Positions 6,673-57,335 of a stretch of 64,000 bases of DNA are shown here, piece by piece (positions within the stretch are counted from its first letter, which is position 1; every line of letters begins with the position of its first letter). The notes under the pieces were generated by a model. The model had not been told where the DNA came from. It searched no databases and saw only the letters and a list, made by a program, of their open reading frames with translations. Location of the stretch: assembly GCF_026184235.1 (NCBI RefSeq), contig NZ_CP110806.1, positions 1,488,001 to 1,552,000 on the forward strand, in the 5' to 3' direction. Source of the DNA: Cellulomonas sp. S1-8 (GTDB taxonomy: Bacteria; Actinomycetota; Actinomycetes; Actinomycetales; Cellulomonadaceae). The position numbers and the translations under genes are program-made.

Positions 6673-7326
6673 GTGACGCACGTGCGCGACCTGCTGCGGT
6701 CCCTGCCCGCCCTGTCCGGGACGTCACCGGGGTTCGACCCCGACGCGGCCCCCGACGACCCCCTCGACCTGTTCGCCGCGTGGCTCGCCACCGCGGTGGA
6801 GCGCGACGTGCCCGAGCCGCACGCGGCCACCCTCGCGACCGCCGACGCCGACGGCCGGCCGTCGGCGCGCGTCCTTGTGCTCAAGGACGTCGGCCCCGAG
6901 GGCCTGGCGTTCGCGACGGACGCGCGCAGCACCAAGGCCGCCGACCTCGCGGCGAACCCGCGGGCCGCGCTGACGTTCTGGTGGCAGCCGGTCGTGCGGC
7001 AGGTGCGGTTCGCGGGCGCCGCGCGGTACCTCGGCGACGACGTCTCCGCCGCCGACTACCTGGCGCGGTCGCCCGCGTCCCGGGCGGCCGCCGCCGGGGT
7101 CCGGCCGGGGGAGCCGCTGGGGTCGGTCGACGAGCTGCGCGCCGCGATGACGCAGGCGCGGGCGCGCGTCGACGACGACCCCGGGTTCGTGCTCCCCGCG
7201 TGGCAGGCCTGGCTCGTGGTGCCGGACGTGGTCGAGTTCTGGCAGGGGGCGGCAGACCGCGCGCACGTCCGGCTGGTGTACCGACGCACGTCGCAGGGCT
7301 GGTCGCGCGGGCTCGTCTGGCCGTGA
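6673..7326 (+). CDS. pdxH: Pyridoxamine 5'-phosphate oxidase family protein, PdxH-like
   Basis: A 217-residue FMN flavoenzyme, expected to oxidise pyridoxamine- or pyridoxine-5'-phosphate to pyridoxal phosphate. Typical PdxH segments are present in order: SARVLVLKDV (FMN phosphate binding), ARSTKAADL, the substrate-contact strand RQVRFAG, and the C-terminal dimerisation part VEFWQGAADRAHVRLVY. Length matches the family. The end SRGLVWP differs from the usual RLAP, so a related flavin oxidase is possible. The GTG at 6673 is used; it is probably transcribed alone, upstream of the transporter leader region. Confidence 0.82.
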   Translation: MTHVRDLLRSLPALSGTSPGFDPDAAPDDPLDLFAAWLATAVERDVPEPHAATLATADADGRPSARVLVLKDVGPEGLAFATDARSTKAADLAANPRAALTFWWQPVVRQVRFAGAARYLGDDVSAADYLARSPASRAAAAGVRPGEPLGSVDELRAAMTQARARVDDDPGFVLPAWQAWLVVPDVVEFWQGAADRAHVRLVYRRTSQGWSRGLVWP

Positions 7327-7360
7327 GGAACGCCACGACCGCACCGGGTGGACGCGGTGC

Positions 7361-7372
7361 TAGGGTCCCCGC
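7361..7372 (+). promoter_or_regulatory. Leaderless promoter of the cysteine-rich leader peptide
   Basis: The -10 hexamer TAGGGT (7361-7366) is six bases from the ATG at 7373, so transcription should begin at or next to the A of the start codon, giving a leaderless mRNA. The same -10-to-start geometry recurs at several genes in this window. No convincing -35 was found. Confidence 0.6.
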
Positions 7373-7444
7373 ATGACCACGACCGAGGGCGCCACCTGCG
7401 CCGCCGCGTGTCGTCGTCGTCGCACCTGTCGCCGCTGTCGCTGA
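7373..7444 (+). CDS. Cysteine-rich leader peptide, putative attenuator
   Basis: A 23-residue open frame beginning MTTTEGAT and continuing CAAACRRRRTCRRCR to a TGA. Four of its last 15 codons are cysteine, three of them TGT, which is an uncommon codon in DNA this GC-rich, and arginine CGT codons are clustered too. It lies 166 bp upstream of an amino-acid ABC importer and appears leaderless. Leaderless polycysteine short ORFs acting as cysteine-responsive attenuators are known in mycobacteria; this fits that class, so ribosome stalling at low cysteine could release the downstream transporter genes. The function is inferred. Confidence 0.6.
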   Translation: MTTTEGATCAAACRRRRTCRRCR

Positions 7445-7487
7445 GACCGCCGACCCACGCCGGATCGTCCCGGCCCCCGCCCCGCGC

Positions 7488-7502
7488 GACCGCCCCGCGG
7501 TC
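7488..7502 (+). promoter_or_regulatory. Hairpin in the transporter leader
   Basis: GACCGC-CCC-GCGGTC forms a six-pair stem between the leader peptide stop (7444) and the transporter start (7611). It could be part of an attenuation switch. No run of T residues follows, and the alternative pairing partner was not identified. The rest of 7445-7610 is C-rich and shows no further gene. Confidence 0.35.
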
Positions 7503-7610
7503 CACTCCGGTGGCACCCGTCCCCGCCCCGTGGTGCTCTCTCCTCATCCCCCTGTCCGGGGTGGACGAGCCCGCGCGGCGCATCTCCGCCCGCCTCGAAA
7601 GGTCCAGCCC

Positions 7611-8396
7611 ATGCTCCGCACGTCCCACCGCCTGCTCGCCCTGCCCGTGATCCTCGCCGTGGGCGCGCTGGCCGCGTGCTCGTCGGGCGACCCCGCGCCG
7701 CAGGGCGAGGGCTCGGCGGACGCGGAGGTGCTGCGCGTCGGCACCGAGGGCACGTACTCGCCGTTCAGCTTCCACGACACCGACGGCGAGCTCACGGGCT
7801 ACGACGTCGAGGTCGTCACGGCCGTCGCCGACGAGCTCGGGCTCGAGGTGGAGTTCTCCGAGACCACCTGGGACTCGATCTTCGCGGGCCTGGAGGCCGA
7901 GCGGTACGACGTCGTCGCCAACCAGGTGACGATCAACGACGAGCGCGCCGCGGTGTACGACTTCAGCGAGCCCTACACGGTGTCGACGGGCGTCGCCGTC
8001 GTCGCGGCGGACGACGACACCGTGACGTCGCTCGACGACGTCGCCGGGCTCACGGCGGCGCAGTCGGCGACGTCGAACTGGTCCCAGGTCGCCAAGGACG
8101 CGGGCGCCACGGTCGAGGGCGTCGAAGGCTTCACGCAGGCCGTCACCCTGCTCACGCAGGGCCGCATCGACGTGACGTTCAACGACGACCTGGCCGTCCT
8201 CGACTACCTCAAGCAGTCGGGCGACACGTCGGTGAAGATCGCGTTCGAGACCGGTGAGACCGTCGAGCAGGCGTTCGCGCTGCGCAAGGACTCGGAGCTG
8301 ACCGCACGGATCGACGAGGCGCTGGCGACGCTGCGCGCCGACGGCACGCTCGCCGAGATCTCGGAGAAGTGGTTCGGCGAGGACGTCTCGCAGTGA
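7611..8396 (+). CDS. Amino-acid ABC transporter, substrate-binding lipoprotein (cystine/polar amino acid type)
   Basis: A 261-residue family 3 extracellular solute-binding protein. The signal peptide ends in the lipobox LAAC with Cys23 as lipid anchor, so it is tethered outside the membrane. The mature part has the family's opening YSPFSFHDTDGELTGYDVEVV and the interlobe segment AAQSATSNWSQ. ATG 7611 has GAAAGG nearby. It heads a three-gene importer (binding protein, permease, ATPase). The cysteine-rich leader peptide upstream suggests cystine or a cysteine derivative as substrate; sequence alone only supports a polar amino acid. Confidence 0.92.
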   Translation: MLRTSHRLLALPVILAVGALAACSSGDPAPQGEGSADAEVLRVGTEGTYSPFSFHDTDGELTGYDVEVVTAVADELGLEVEFSETTWDSIFAGLEAERYDVVANQVTINDERAAVYDFSEPYTVSTGVAVVAADDDTVTSLDDVAGLTAAQSATSNWSQVAKDAGATVEGVEGFTQAVTLLTQGRIDVTFNDDLAVLDYLKQSGDTSVKIAFETGETVEQAFALRKDSELTARIDEALATLRADGTLAEISEKWFGEDVSQ

Positions 8397-8427
8397 GCGA
8401 GTCCCCGACCCGGGCGGAGGGGCCGCG

Positions 8428-9096
8428 GTGACCGGGGACACCTGGGACCTCGTCGCGTCGTCGATCGGCCCGCTGCTGTCGGGGGCGATCCGCGGGACGA
8501 TCCCGCTGACGCTGATCTCGTTCGCCATCGGCCTGGTGCTGGCGCTGGTCGTGGCGCTCGCCCGGCTGTCGCGCCGACGCGTCGTGTCCGGCGTGGCGCG
8601 CGCCTACATCTCGGTGATCCGCGGCACGCCGCTGCTCGTGCAGCTCTTCATCATCTTCTACGCGTTGCCGTCGTTCGGCGTCGTCATCGACCCGTTCCCC
8701 TCGGCGGTCGTGGCGTTCTCGCTCAACGTCGGCGGGTACGCGGCCGAGACGATCCGCGCGGCGATCCTGTCGGTGCCGAAGGGGCAGTGGGAGGCGGCGG
8801 TGACCGTCGGGATGGACCACACCCTGACGCTGCGGCGCGTCGTGCTGCCGCAGGCCGTGCGCGTCGCGGTGCCGCCGCTGTCCAACACGTTCATCTCGCT
8901 GGTCAAGGACACGTCCCTGGCCTCGACGATCATGGTCACCGAGCTGCTGCGCAAGGCGCAGGAGATCGCGGCGCCGACGTACGAGTTCATGACCCTGTAC
9001 TCGCTGGCCGCGGTGGTCTACTGGCTCATCTGCCTGGTCCTGTCGACCGGGCAGTCGCAGCTCGAGCGCCGGCTCGACCGGTTCGTGGCGCACTGA
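8428..9096 (+). CDS. Amino-acid ABC transporter permease
   Basis: A 222-residue HisM/GlnP-type inner membrane permease with about five hydrophobic helices. The family motif is seen as YISVIRGTPLLVQLFI, and the ATPase-contacting EAA loop as EAAVTVGMDHTLTLRRVVLPQA. It should form the transmembrane channel with the ATPase encoded just downstream. The GTG start at 8428 has GGAGGGG upstream. It lies 31 bp after the binding-protein gene and its stop overlaps a possible ATG (9096) of the next frame, indicating a single transcript. Confidence 0.93.
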   Translation: MTGDTWDLVASSIGPLLSGAIRGTIPLTLISFAIGLVLALVVALARLSRRRVVSGVARAYISVIRGTPLLVQLFIIFYALPSFGVVIDPFPSAVVAFSLNVGGYAAETIRAAILSVPKGQWEAAVTVGMDHTLTLRRVVLPQAVRVAVPPLSNTFISLVKDTSLASTIMVTELLRKAQEIAAPTYEFMTLYSLAAVVYWLICLVLSTGQSQLERRLDRFVAH

Positions 9097-9125
9097 TGGC
9101 GACGCGCCACGGCGAGGAGGATCCG

Positions 9126-9890
9126 ATGACGAGCGACGCCCGCCCCCTGGTGGAGGTCCGCGGCCTGACCAAGTCCTTCGGCGACAACCACGTGCTGCGC
9201 GGCGTCGACCTCACGGTCGACCCCGGCAGCGTGACCGTCCTCATCGGCCCGTCCGGGTCCGGCAAGACGACGCTGCTGCGCTGCCTCAACTCCCTCGAGG
9301 TCCCCGAGGCGGGCACGGTGCGCGTCGACGACGTCGAGCTCGACCTGGTGCGGCCGCCCTCGCGCGCCGACCTGCGCCGCCTGCGCGCGACGTCGGGCAT
9401 GGTCTTCCAGTCCCACCAGCTCTTCCCGCACCGCACGGCATTGCAGAACGTGACCGAGGGCCCGCGGTACGCGCAGCGCCGCCGGGTCGCCGAGGTCACG
9501 GCCGAGGCGACCGCGCTGCTGGCCAAGGTCGGCCTCGCGGACAAGGCCGACGCCTACCCGCACGAGCTGTCGGGCGGCCAGCAGCAGCGGGTCGGCATCG
9601 CGCGCGCCCTCGCGCTGCGCCCCCGGCTCCTGCTGTTCGACGAGCCGACGTCGGCGCTCGACCCCGAGACGGTGGGCGAGGTGCTGGCCGTCATGCGGGA
9701 CCTGGCGGCCGAGGGCTGGACGATGGTCGTCGTCACGCACGAGATCCGGTTCGCGCAGCAGGTGGCCGACCACGTCGTGTTCCTCGACGGCGGCGTCGTC
9801 GTGGAGGAGGGGCGGCCCGGCGACGTGCTGGGCGACCCCCGGCACGAGCGCACGCGGCGCTTCCTGCAGCGGATCCTCGACCCGCTCTGA
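9126..9890 (+). CDS. Amino-acid ABC transporter ATP-binding protein
   Basis: A 254-residue GlnQ/HisP-type ATPase. Walker A is GPSGSGKTT (residues 41-49), the Q-loop lies in FQSHQLFPHRTA, the signature is LSGGQQQRVGIARALAL, Walker B is LLLFDEPTSALD, and the switch His is in VVTHE. It powers the importer encoded by the two preceding genes. ATG 9126 is preferred because GGAGG lies at ideal distance; an in-frame ATG at 9096 overlapping the permease stop would add ten residues. Last gene of the operon; the next gene is on the opposite strand, two bases away. Confidence 0.95.
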   Translation: MTSDARPLVEVRGLTKSFGDNHVLRGVDLTVDPGSVTVLIGPSGSGKTTLLRCLNSLEVPEAGTVRVDDVELDLVRPPSRADLRRLRATSGMVFQSHQLFPHRTALQNVTEGPRYAQRRRVAEVTAEATALLAKVGLADKADAYPHELSGGQQQRVGIARALALRPRLLLFDEPTSALDPETVGEVLAVMRDLAAEGWTMVVVTHEIRFAQQVADHVVFLDGGVVVEEGRPGDVLGDPRHERTRRFLQRILDPL

Positions 9891-9892
9891 CG

Positions 9893-11011
9893 TCAGCGCG
9901 GCGGCACGGGAGCCGCGGGCGACGCGGCTGCCTCGGGAGGCGCGGCGGCGTCCGTCCCGGTCTCCCGTCGCGGCGGCAGCGGGTCGGGGGCGACGTCGGC
10001 CGCGCGCACCGACACCGCGTGCAGGATCGTCTCCAGGGGTCCGCGTCCGACGGTCGCGTGCCACAGCCAGCACAGCGCGAGCGTGACCAGCAGGAACCAG
10101 AGCCAGCCGGTGACGGTCGCCTCGTAGACGACGTCGTCGCCCAGCACCGCGATGACCAGCAGCTGCCCGACGTACGCGGTGAGCGCGAGCGCCCCCGTCG
10201 CCGACACCGGCGCGAGCGCCCGCGGCCAGCGCACGCCCACGGCCAGGCAGACGGCCAGCACCAGCAGGCACGTGCCGACGTTGCCGGCGACCTCGAAGGT
10301 CGTCGACGAGTGCGGCTCGGCGGTCAGGAGCCCGGCGGTGGCACCCAGCACGAGCCGTGCGGCCCACGCGCCCCCGTGGCCCGCGACGACGAGCCCCGCA
10401 CCGACGGCGGCGAGCACCGCGTGGGTCCGTCCCGCCCGCAGGTCGCCGCGGGCGACCGCGAGGCCGACCAGCACGTACGCGAACCACACCACGGCGGGGT
10501 AGTACTGCCCGATCAGCACCGACATCAGGTCCAGCGGGCGCTCGTCGGCCACCTCGAGCCGGAGGTCCACGACGAGGACGCGGCGCAGCAGCGGACCCAG
10601 CACCGCGACCGCGACGGCGGCGACGATCAGCGCCCAGCGCGGCCACCGCAGCACGGCGACACCCGCGGCGAACAACCCGGCGTAGACGACGAGGATCACG
10701 ACGACGGGCGTCCCGAGCAGGACGATCCCGGTGCCGAGCACGACGAGCAGGACCGCGCGCACCAGGATCCGCAGCCGCGCCTGGACCAGACGGGTGCCGT
10801 CGACGGGGTGCGCACCGCCCGACAGGAGCCCGAGCCCGACGCCGGCGAGCAGCACGAACAGCGCCGACGGGCGCCCGTCGGCGAGCTGGGACCAGCCCCC
10901 CGGCGGCCACGTGCGCCACGGGTCGTCCGGTCCGACGTGCGCGGTGACCATGCCGAGCACGGCAAGACCCCGGGCCGTGTCCACCCCGACGATGCGTCGC
11001 ATTCTCGGCAT
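9893..11011 (-). CDS. DUF418/HGSNAT-like membrane protein (putative acyltransferase)
   Basis: A 372-residue multi-pass membrane protein beginning MPRMRRIVGVDTARGLAVLGMV, the signature of the family that includes heparan-alpha-glucosaminide N-acetyltransferase-like and DUF418 proteins. About ten hydrophobic helices are seen, and the C-terminal 40 residues form a Pro/Ala-rich cytoplasmic tail. Such proteins may move acyl groups across the membrane onto sugars or wall polymers, but the substrate is unknown. ATG 11011 puts the conserved D-ARGLA motif next to the start; an ATG at 11056 would add 15 residues. It converges on the ABC transporter and diverges from the methyltransferase. Confidence 0.75.
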   Translation of the reverse strand: MPRMRRIVGVDTARGLAVLGMVTAHVGPDDPWRTWPPGGWSQLADGRPSALFVLLAGVGLGLLSGGAHPVDGTRLVQARLRILVRAVLLVVLGTGIVLLGTPVVVILVVYAGLFAAGVAVLRWPRWALIVAAVAVAVLGPLLRRVLVVDLRLEVADERPLDLMSVLIGQYYPAVVWFAYVLVGLAVARGDLRAGRTHAVLAAVGAGLVVAGHGGAWAARLVLGATAGLLTAEPHSSTTFEVAGNVGTCLLVLAVCLAVGVRWPRALAPVSATGALALTAYVGQLLVIAVLGDDVVYEATVTGWLWFLLVTLALCWLWHATVGRGPLETILHAVSVRAADVAPDPLPPRRETGTDAAAPPEAAASPAAPVPPR

Positions 11012-11116
11012 GCTAGACGTGCCGGCTGGGTGCGGCCCACCCAGCGTTCTCAGCATCTGACCTCATCCGTCCCGGCAGGTGGTCCGATGGCGCGCGCGAC
11101 GCCTACAGTTCGGCGT

Positions 11117-56962: not shown

Positions 56963-57327
56963 GGGGGTGATCGGTTTCGACGGTGATCGTCGATCCAGGT
57001 GAAGCGGGTCGAGGATGCACGGTTATCTCGTGAACGCTCCGTGCAACTTATAGGTGCCGATTCCAAGCGCACCGACTTCGCCCTCGCCGCCTGAGCGAGG
57101 CTTCGAAGTCCGTCGGCCTAGGCTTGCTTCCGTCCTAGTTCCCGGCGTCATCTAGGGAGCCACTGCTGTCCGTCCTCGTCGGTGGGACGGGCGGGACTCT
57201 TAGCCGACTGAGCCCGTCCACGTCTTGTTCGCGTGATCGTGGGGGCTGAGAAAATCTACTGCGGACTGCACCCGGAGAAGCCCTGGTTCAATGTCATCGG
57301 ACGCGGGTTCGATTCCCGCCACCTCCA
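56963..57327 (+). ncRNA. ssrA: tmRNA (transfer-messenger RNA)
   Basis: The 5' end GGGGGUGAUCGGUUUCGAC pairs with the 3' end CACCUCC as seven acceptor pairs; the T-arm GGTTCGATTCC is at 57305-57315 and the CCA is not encoded. The tag frame starts at GCC 57056 and reads ADSKRTDFALAA to TGA (57092-57094). It rescues stalled ribosomes with SmpB (52392). The first tag Ala would come from the tRNA part. A strong terminator follows. The 56758-56962 gap has no gene. Confidence 0.96.
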
Positions 57328-57335
57328 CGTCGCGA

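Follow-up and report, generated by a model that had tools for sequence, protein, structure and literature searches.

The three-gene importer encoded at positions 7611-9890 of the window (the whole stretch of 64,000 nucleotides of Cellulomonas sp. S1-8 DNA that was analysed) is preceded by a short Cys-rich frame, which very probably serves as a leaderless leader-peptide attenuator and makes a cystine importer respond to cysteine. A cysteine-responsive attenuator is well supported because the frame is conserved, its Cys codons have been kept, their codon usage is biased towards TGT, the importer is of the cystine type, and sister leaders are found before sulphur operons.

The putatively leaderless leader frame (MTTTEGATCAAACRRRRTCRRCR; 7373..7444, plus strand), established by direct reading and from its orthologues, comprises 23 codons, with Cys at codons 9 (TGC), 13, 19 and 22 (all TGT), that is, all within the last 15 codons, and with three consecutive CGT codons. 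Its last 11 nucleotides, GCTGTCGCTGA, are invariant across 10 close orthologues. An extended -10 promoter element, TGC-TAGGGT, can be read directly at 7358..7366 on the plus strand, and six bases (CCCCGC) lie between the hexamer TAGGGT (7361-7366) and the ATG at 7373. This -10-like hexamer is conserved in the close orthologues, where its T, A, G and final T do not vary (10 sequences), and a TGC immediately 5' of the hexamer is found in 15 of 20 leaders from the genus. From this arrangement we infer that transcription would start at the leader ATG or next to it. The upstream neighbour of the importer, a pyridoxamine-phosphate-oxidase-like gene, ends at 7326, and 166 nt separate the stop of the leader frame from the ATG of the binding-protein gene at 7611. 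The initial annotation had described a 23-codon frame with four Cys codons (three of them TGT) clustered in its last 15 and with clustered CGT, six nt after TAGGGT, followed by a 166-bp gap and a three-gene ABC importer; this description proved exact to the base.

The importer consists of a substrate-binding lipoprotein of the cystine type (SBP_bac_3; 7611..8396), a cystine-type permease (8428..9096) and a TcyN-type ATPase (9126..9890, its start taken from the translation), all on the plus strand, and the Shine-Dalgarno element of the first gene, CGAAAGG (7596..7602, plus strand), is invariant in the 10 close orthologues. The lipoprotein was assigned from NCBIfam, PDB and Pfam matches, the permease from NCBIfam and Pfam and the ATPase from NCBIfam. 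The top NCBIfam models were PRK11260 (cystine SBP; 190 bits, cut-off 312) for the binding protein, PRK15100 (cystine permease; 260 bits, cut-off 300) for the permease and PRK11264 (TcyN; 321 bits, cut-off 406) for the ATPase, so that none of the three subunits reaches the curated NCBIfam cut-off for the cystine transporter, and for this reason the cystine label is inferred. All three nevertheless match best the models of cystine importers of the TcyJLN / FliY-YecS-YecC type, while scoring, unlike certified members, below the curated cut-offs. The best PDB relative of the binding protein is 2yln/3zsf, listed as an amino-acid binding protein only, which we take to be the gonococcal L-cystine receptor. 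The importer is probably a cystine uptake system, all its subunits lying below curated cut-offs, and the earlier guess that cystine is the substrate agrees with the best model of each. Among plasmid records, the binding protein has only relatives of less than 60% identity.

Within the genus (81 genomes sampled), a close importer was found in 24 genomes, in 25 copies, of which L005, at a contig edge, was left out. In 21 of the 24 testable copies there is a Cys-rich frame that opens with ATG or GTG and whose start codon is preceded, at six or seven nt, by a -10-like hexamer (the leader of L116 being counted with two Cys); examples are MTTTSRDALVVACRGCRCCR, VTSTPAPARRSPVAPGSCCCRPRR and MTSAPVHHATTVACRRCCRR. 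Twelve of the 21 hexamers are of the TA-N3-T type, and the other nine are weaker (TGGCAT, TGCCAT, TGAGAT or TTGCAT). The hexamer lies 6-7 nt before the start in every script-scored leader, in a scan that allowed 5-8 nt and favoured 6-7. The start codon is ambiguous in L011 and L121, where the scan favours a GTG lying two codons further upstream; the downstream start was used for folding, codon counts and the comparison of leader pairs. The remaining copies, L013, L117 and L120, showed no leader, also on a rescan in which two Cys were allowed. Leaders were detected by their Cys content, which favours a result of conservation, and the counts, taken from related genomes, are not independent.

Conservation extends to the Cys codons. 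Eleven equal-length leader pairs with at least one difference were compared (seven pairs from the genus, three sharing members), and 44 Cys were kept and none lost, against 30 changes of other residues and 24 silent changes; Cys-depleted copies would partly go undetected in this count, leaders being found by Cys. The number of Cys differs among less closely related leaders. The clustered Cys codons thus appear to be kept by selection, though their use in detection favours this result, and the outcome in relatives, proposed at the outset as a test of the leader, turned out in its favour.

Outside the genus, 66 copies from other genera of the family were listed and 64 examined, two near contig ends being left out. 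A leader is present in 20 of the 64 (12/14, 4/4, 2/2, 1/3 and 1/1 in individual genera, and 0/40 in the remainder), and the scans found none in the other 44. Five of the 20 (L127, L148, L150, L154 and L169) were detected only in the two-Cys rescan, which covered 21 of the 64 copies, the L169 leader being read by eye. In two loci of one genus, L172 and L185, a frame of nine codons opens with GTG six nt downstream of TGCGCT, 435-493 nt before the binding-protein match (MRRGRCACS and MRRRRCACS, which are alike); these frames were left out of the leader count and are possibly a shorter, two-Cys leader. In L140, a Cys-free ATG frame, MSSPRPRTAATRPNVVRA, six nt after TGCAAT and at most 520 nt before the binding-protein match, is possibly a decayed leader. 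The best 80 of 547 named-genome loci, two of them with hardly any upstream sequence, contained a few further leaders (for example L065, L068, L108, L046 and L087) and perhaps another in Pseudonocardia (L045); when a frame with at least three Cys was required to follow a strict TA-N3-T hexamer, none of the Mycobacterium, Nocardia and Microbacterium loci among these 80 qualified. The four Firmicute loci that did (L089, L095, L105 and L106) have frames starting with GTG or TTG, lie in AT-rich DNA and were read as chance. At 13 loci of paralogous amino-acid importers no such frame was found within about 500 nt; one of these loci, L021, has a 55-codon GTG frame with at least three Cys, without a -10 element.

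Other Cys-rich leaders stand ahead of sulphur operons in this genome, in keeping with the link to sulphur supply made in the initial annotation. A leader, MSLPGNRWMCRCCRAAAVPCACCPRNR, with a GTG start and CACCCT six nt before it, stands in front of an operon made up of a sulphite-reductase-like gene (NIR_SIR) and, downstream of it, two PAPS-reductase-family genes, which by their family would be CysH/CysD-like; the operon leader L203 (G000:C1 near 2095300, minus strand) is a polycysteine GTG-start frame with a conserved spacer that holds competing helices. The sulphite-reductase operon has a Cys-rich leader in all six genomes compared, and all 30 sulphite-reductase loci retrieved from the genus (L253-L282) have a Cys-rich frame behind a -10-like hexamer, these being the best 30 from the 49 genomes of the genus in which matching DNA was found, picked by similarity and not a census. 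Cys leaders are thus found in the same orientation as, and before, both the cystine-type importer (below cut-off) and the sulphite-reductase-like operon. A sulphonate-type (SsuA) operon is preceded by a leader with CRCC.CC in four of five genomes, that of the window included (L235); the L235 leader need not be leaderless, because GGAGG precedes its ATG. Ahead of the sulphonate operon leader lies an inverted repeat, TCTCAC-ATC-GTGAGA, also present in L233, which looks like a regulator site; read on the reverse complement of L235, it immediately precedes the short frame whose end is near 300. An SsuA-like importer, with a binding protein below the family cut-off, has the leader MTTAPHTAASPLRVRACRSCPAPRCR in L244 and similar ones in L241-L243 (MTTAPH...CRSCPA..CR, with CATTCT or CATTGT seven nt before the ATG), about 540-580 nt before the binding-protein match. 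No Cys leader was found at 12 cysK-type loci (L219-L230).

According to the mechanism proposed here, the transcript would begin at the ATG of the 23-codon frame, so that each transcript would first be read by a ribosome, and this ribosome would meet four Cys codons, of which three are UGU, a rare codon locally. With charged Cys-tRNA in short supply, it would pause on the Cys codons late in the frame, with the effect of raising the expression of the downstream importer; with plentiful cysteine the frame would be completed and importer expression would stay low. The frame, the promoter-like element, the conservation, the codon bias, the cystine-type importer and the Cys leaders of sulphur operons form the computed part of this model. 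Its start site, the translation of the frame, the pausing and the direction of control are predicted. How a pause would be passed on may be read in two ways, which are choices of output stage and not rivals to the Cys sensor.

Pausing in mycobacteria is said to break an RNA structure that hides the ribosome site of the downstream gene, and a translational output of this kind at the importer is plausible, though somewhat short of an even chance. When the Cys codons were blocked in silico (20 genus leaders, the frame free versus blocked up to the last Cys codon), the ribosome site was clearly freed in two, L017 and L118, where its unpaired fraction rose from 0.23-0.30 to 0.52-0.55, such folding being weak evidence on ribosome-site unmasking. 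The other 18 importer leaders gave no clear change, and that of the window moved from 0.49 to 0.56 on blocking at the last Cys and was lower at earlier Cys codons. A further case comes from 27 sulphite-reductase leaders (26 distinct rows; L265, L266 and L281 were dropped because no ribosome site matched the pattern used). In these, alignment columns 51-56 can pair with the bases immediately 5' of the AUG; four of these pairs never vary, an invariance that says little by itself. A competing helix, 60-67/101-109, is kept in 96% of cells, and in 11 sequences one of its pairs is U-A instead of C-G, a compensatory change that was probably a single event; the alternative pairing of the frame end with 101-109 is broken at this position. 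A local hairpin, 51-57/63-69, is possible in all 27 and excludes both other pairings. Against shuffles, two measures stand out, the covariation score (0.183, equalled by 0/500) and the number of cells in which both sides changed (1/500), whereas the pairs changed on both sides (253/500) and further pair types (500/500) are not remarkable; it should be noted for these figures that the helices were chosen from the same alignment and that sequences which are related may score above shuffles even if they share no structure. Slid versions of the helices score lower throughout. The helices fit a switch over the ribosome site, yet unmasking was not consistent when six sulphite-reductase leaders were folded at equilibrium; L201 rose from 0.13 to 0.30, at one codon only.

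The second possible output is termination by Rho, in which the spacer would be a Rho loading region and a pause on the last Cys codons would alter access to it, letting polymerase reach the importer; this is held tentatively, as a reading rather less probable than not. The spacer at 7445..7595 (plus strand) is C-rich and G-poor in base composition (C 0.52, G 0.29), and folding places short local hairpins in it (e.g. 7459-7474 and 7488-7502). Over the 130 nt before the ribosome site, C minus G is 0.198 in 34 leader-bearing copies and 0.034 in 55 others (p 1.5e-11, kinship ignored). A C-rich spacer is moreover a mark of some predictive use, because five of the nine 'others' with C minus G of at least 0.13 proved to be leader-bearing (L116, L127, L150, L154 and L169); the remaining four (L009, L125, L140 and L173) are without a leader. 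No intrinsic terminator (hairpin plus T run) was found at 7300-7640, which is also in favour of Rho. On the other side, the footprint of a paused ribosome reaches only about 12 nt beyond the codon, which would leave most of the spacer bare whether or not the ribosome pauses; non-coding RNA may become C-rich from other causes, and a similar richness in C is seen in three of 12 paralogue controls. Such a spacer would suit Rho but proves nothing, and Rho is suggested here as one candidate reader of it.

The initial annotation had noted a stable hairpin in the spacer; hairpins are indeed present, but as a working part they find no support, folding no better than shuffles or controls. The window leader folds no better than its shuffles (z 0.24), and local folding of the spacer has z -1.27 in the window and a mean of -1.73 (n=19), compared with -1.49 for upstream regions without a detected leader (n=44). 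An array of spacer hairpins was rejected as a selected feature: z is negative in 19 of 19, but the controls without a detected leader are alike. A conserved RNA switch at the importer was also rejected, as 21 of the 23 RNAalifold pairs from the 10 close orthologues lie in the promoter-to-frame stretch and only two pairs changed on both sides; among these orthologues the spacer sequence is mostly variable, unlike the frame end and CGAAAGG. No Rfam leader or riboswitch scored above the gathering score in the window, where a tmRNA gene (56963-57330; tag ADSKRTDFALAA) was the only match. Well-folded upstream regions (z about -1 to -4) are also seen in copies where no leader was detected, L128-L129 and L133-L139 among them, and these importers may have another regulator upstream. 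A fuller version of the attenuator would combine a leaderless Cys sensor, whose sensitivity is set by UGU, with Rho-dependent termination in the C-rich, G-poor spacer; in it, four or more Cys-rich leaders of the same genome would together form a single sulphur regulon directed by ribosomes, outside mycobacteria, in which the output stage differs from operon to operon. Taken whole, this seems unlikely.

Codon usage bears on what the frame senses. TGT makes up 51 of 64 Cys codons in 19 distinct leader frames of the genus and five of 95 in the 33 window frames taken as genes by codon composition (Fisher p 2e-23, kinship ignored; 0.001 for the window leader alone); the bias is weaker in sulphite-reductase leaders (59 of 129 Cys codons in the 19 leaders with codons available). 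A shortage of tRNA might be felt most at the rare UGU codons. Arg is as frequent as Cys among leader residues (18% and 16%), and CGT/CGC runs lie among the Cys codons, which could mean that the frame senses arginine, or that the peptide itself acts by a nascent-chain stall or by binding a metal or a redox partner. Either is very improbable: several relatives have a Cys-rich tail with little or no Arg (CCPPTCASC, CCPACCLRCC), the leader-bearing operons have sulphur and not arginine in common, and the choice of TGT would be irrelevant to a peptide. In NCBIfam, none of 11 leader peptides reached the cut-off of any model and 10 had no match at all; the L007 peptide had two streptolysin-like matches below cut-off, read as low-complexity Cys matches. 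Annotation based on NCBIfam would therefore overlook such leader peptides.

Short frames are common (72 ORFs of at least 20 aa overlap a 9-kb stretch), but the idea that the leader is an open frame arisen by chance in GC-rich DNA between genes has next to no probability left, being already refuted by conservation across the genus. When both window strands were searched for frames 12-40 codons long that follow a -10-like hexamer and carry at least four Cys among their final 15 codons, 7373-7444 was the single hit, and 30 simulated 64-kb windows of the same dinucleotide frequencies yielded no such frame.

Polycysteine leaderless short-ORF attenuators have reportedly been described in mycobacteria, and the cysteine attenuator proposed here resembles them in its apparent leaderless start, the sulphur genes downstream and the presence of several such frames per genome. 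It also shares a short frame with a C-terminal Cys cluster with the mycobacterial Cys-rich uORFs, e.g. before cysA2, for which cysteine-directed attenuation is proposed in a passage of Shell (2015; PMC4633059); a passage of Smith (2022) cites Canestrari (2020) for cysteine-responsive mycobacterial leaders. It differs in its host family, the Cellulomonadaceae, and in the cystine-type importer downstream. Compared with the mycobacterial leaders, Cys is interspersed with Arg in most of the genus copies, and a TGT preference and a C-rich spacer have been measured. The classical trp, his and leu attenuators likewise have a short leader with codons of the sensed amino acid, rare codons being used in leu, and the Cellulomonas leader is similar in both respects; unlike them it has an apparent leaderless start, no intrinsic terminator and, for the importer, no conserved alternative hairpins. 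If the proposal is true, cysteine attenuation by leaderless frames extends from mycobacteria to a separate actinobacterial family and is tied to cystine uptake besides sulphate assimilation. Handles for testing it are offered by the four Cys-rich leaders in one genome, by the strong bias of the importer leaders towards the synonymous codon UGU, and by importer orthologues of which some have a leader and others lack it.

Convergent with the importer, a membrane acyltransferase-like protein (Pfam HGSNAT_cat and DUF418) is encoded at 9893-11056 on the minus strand.
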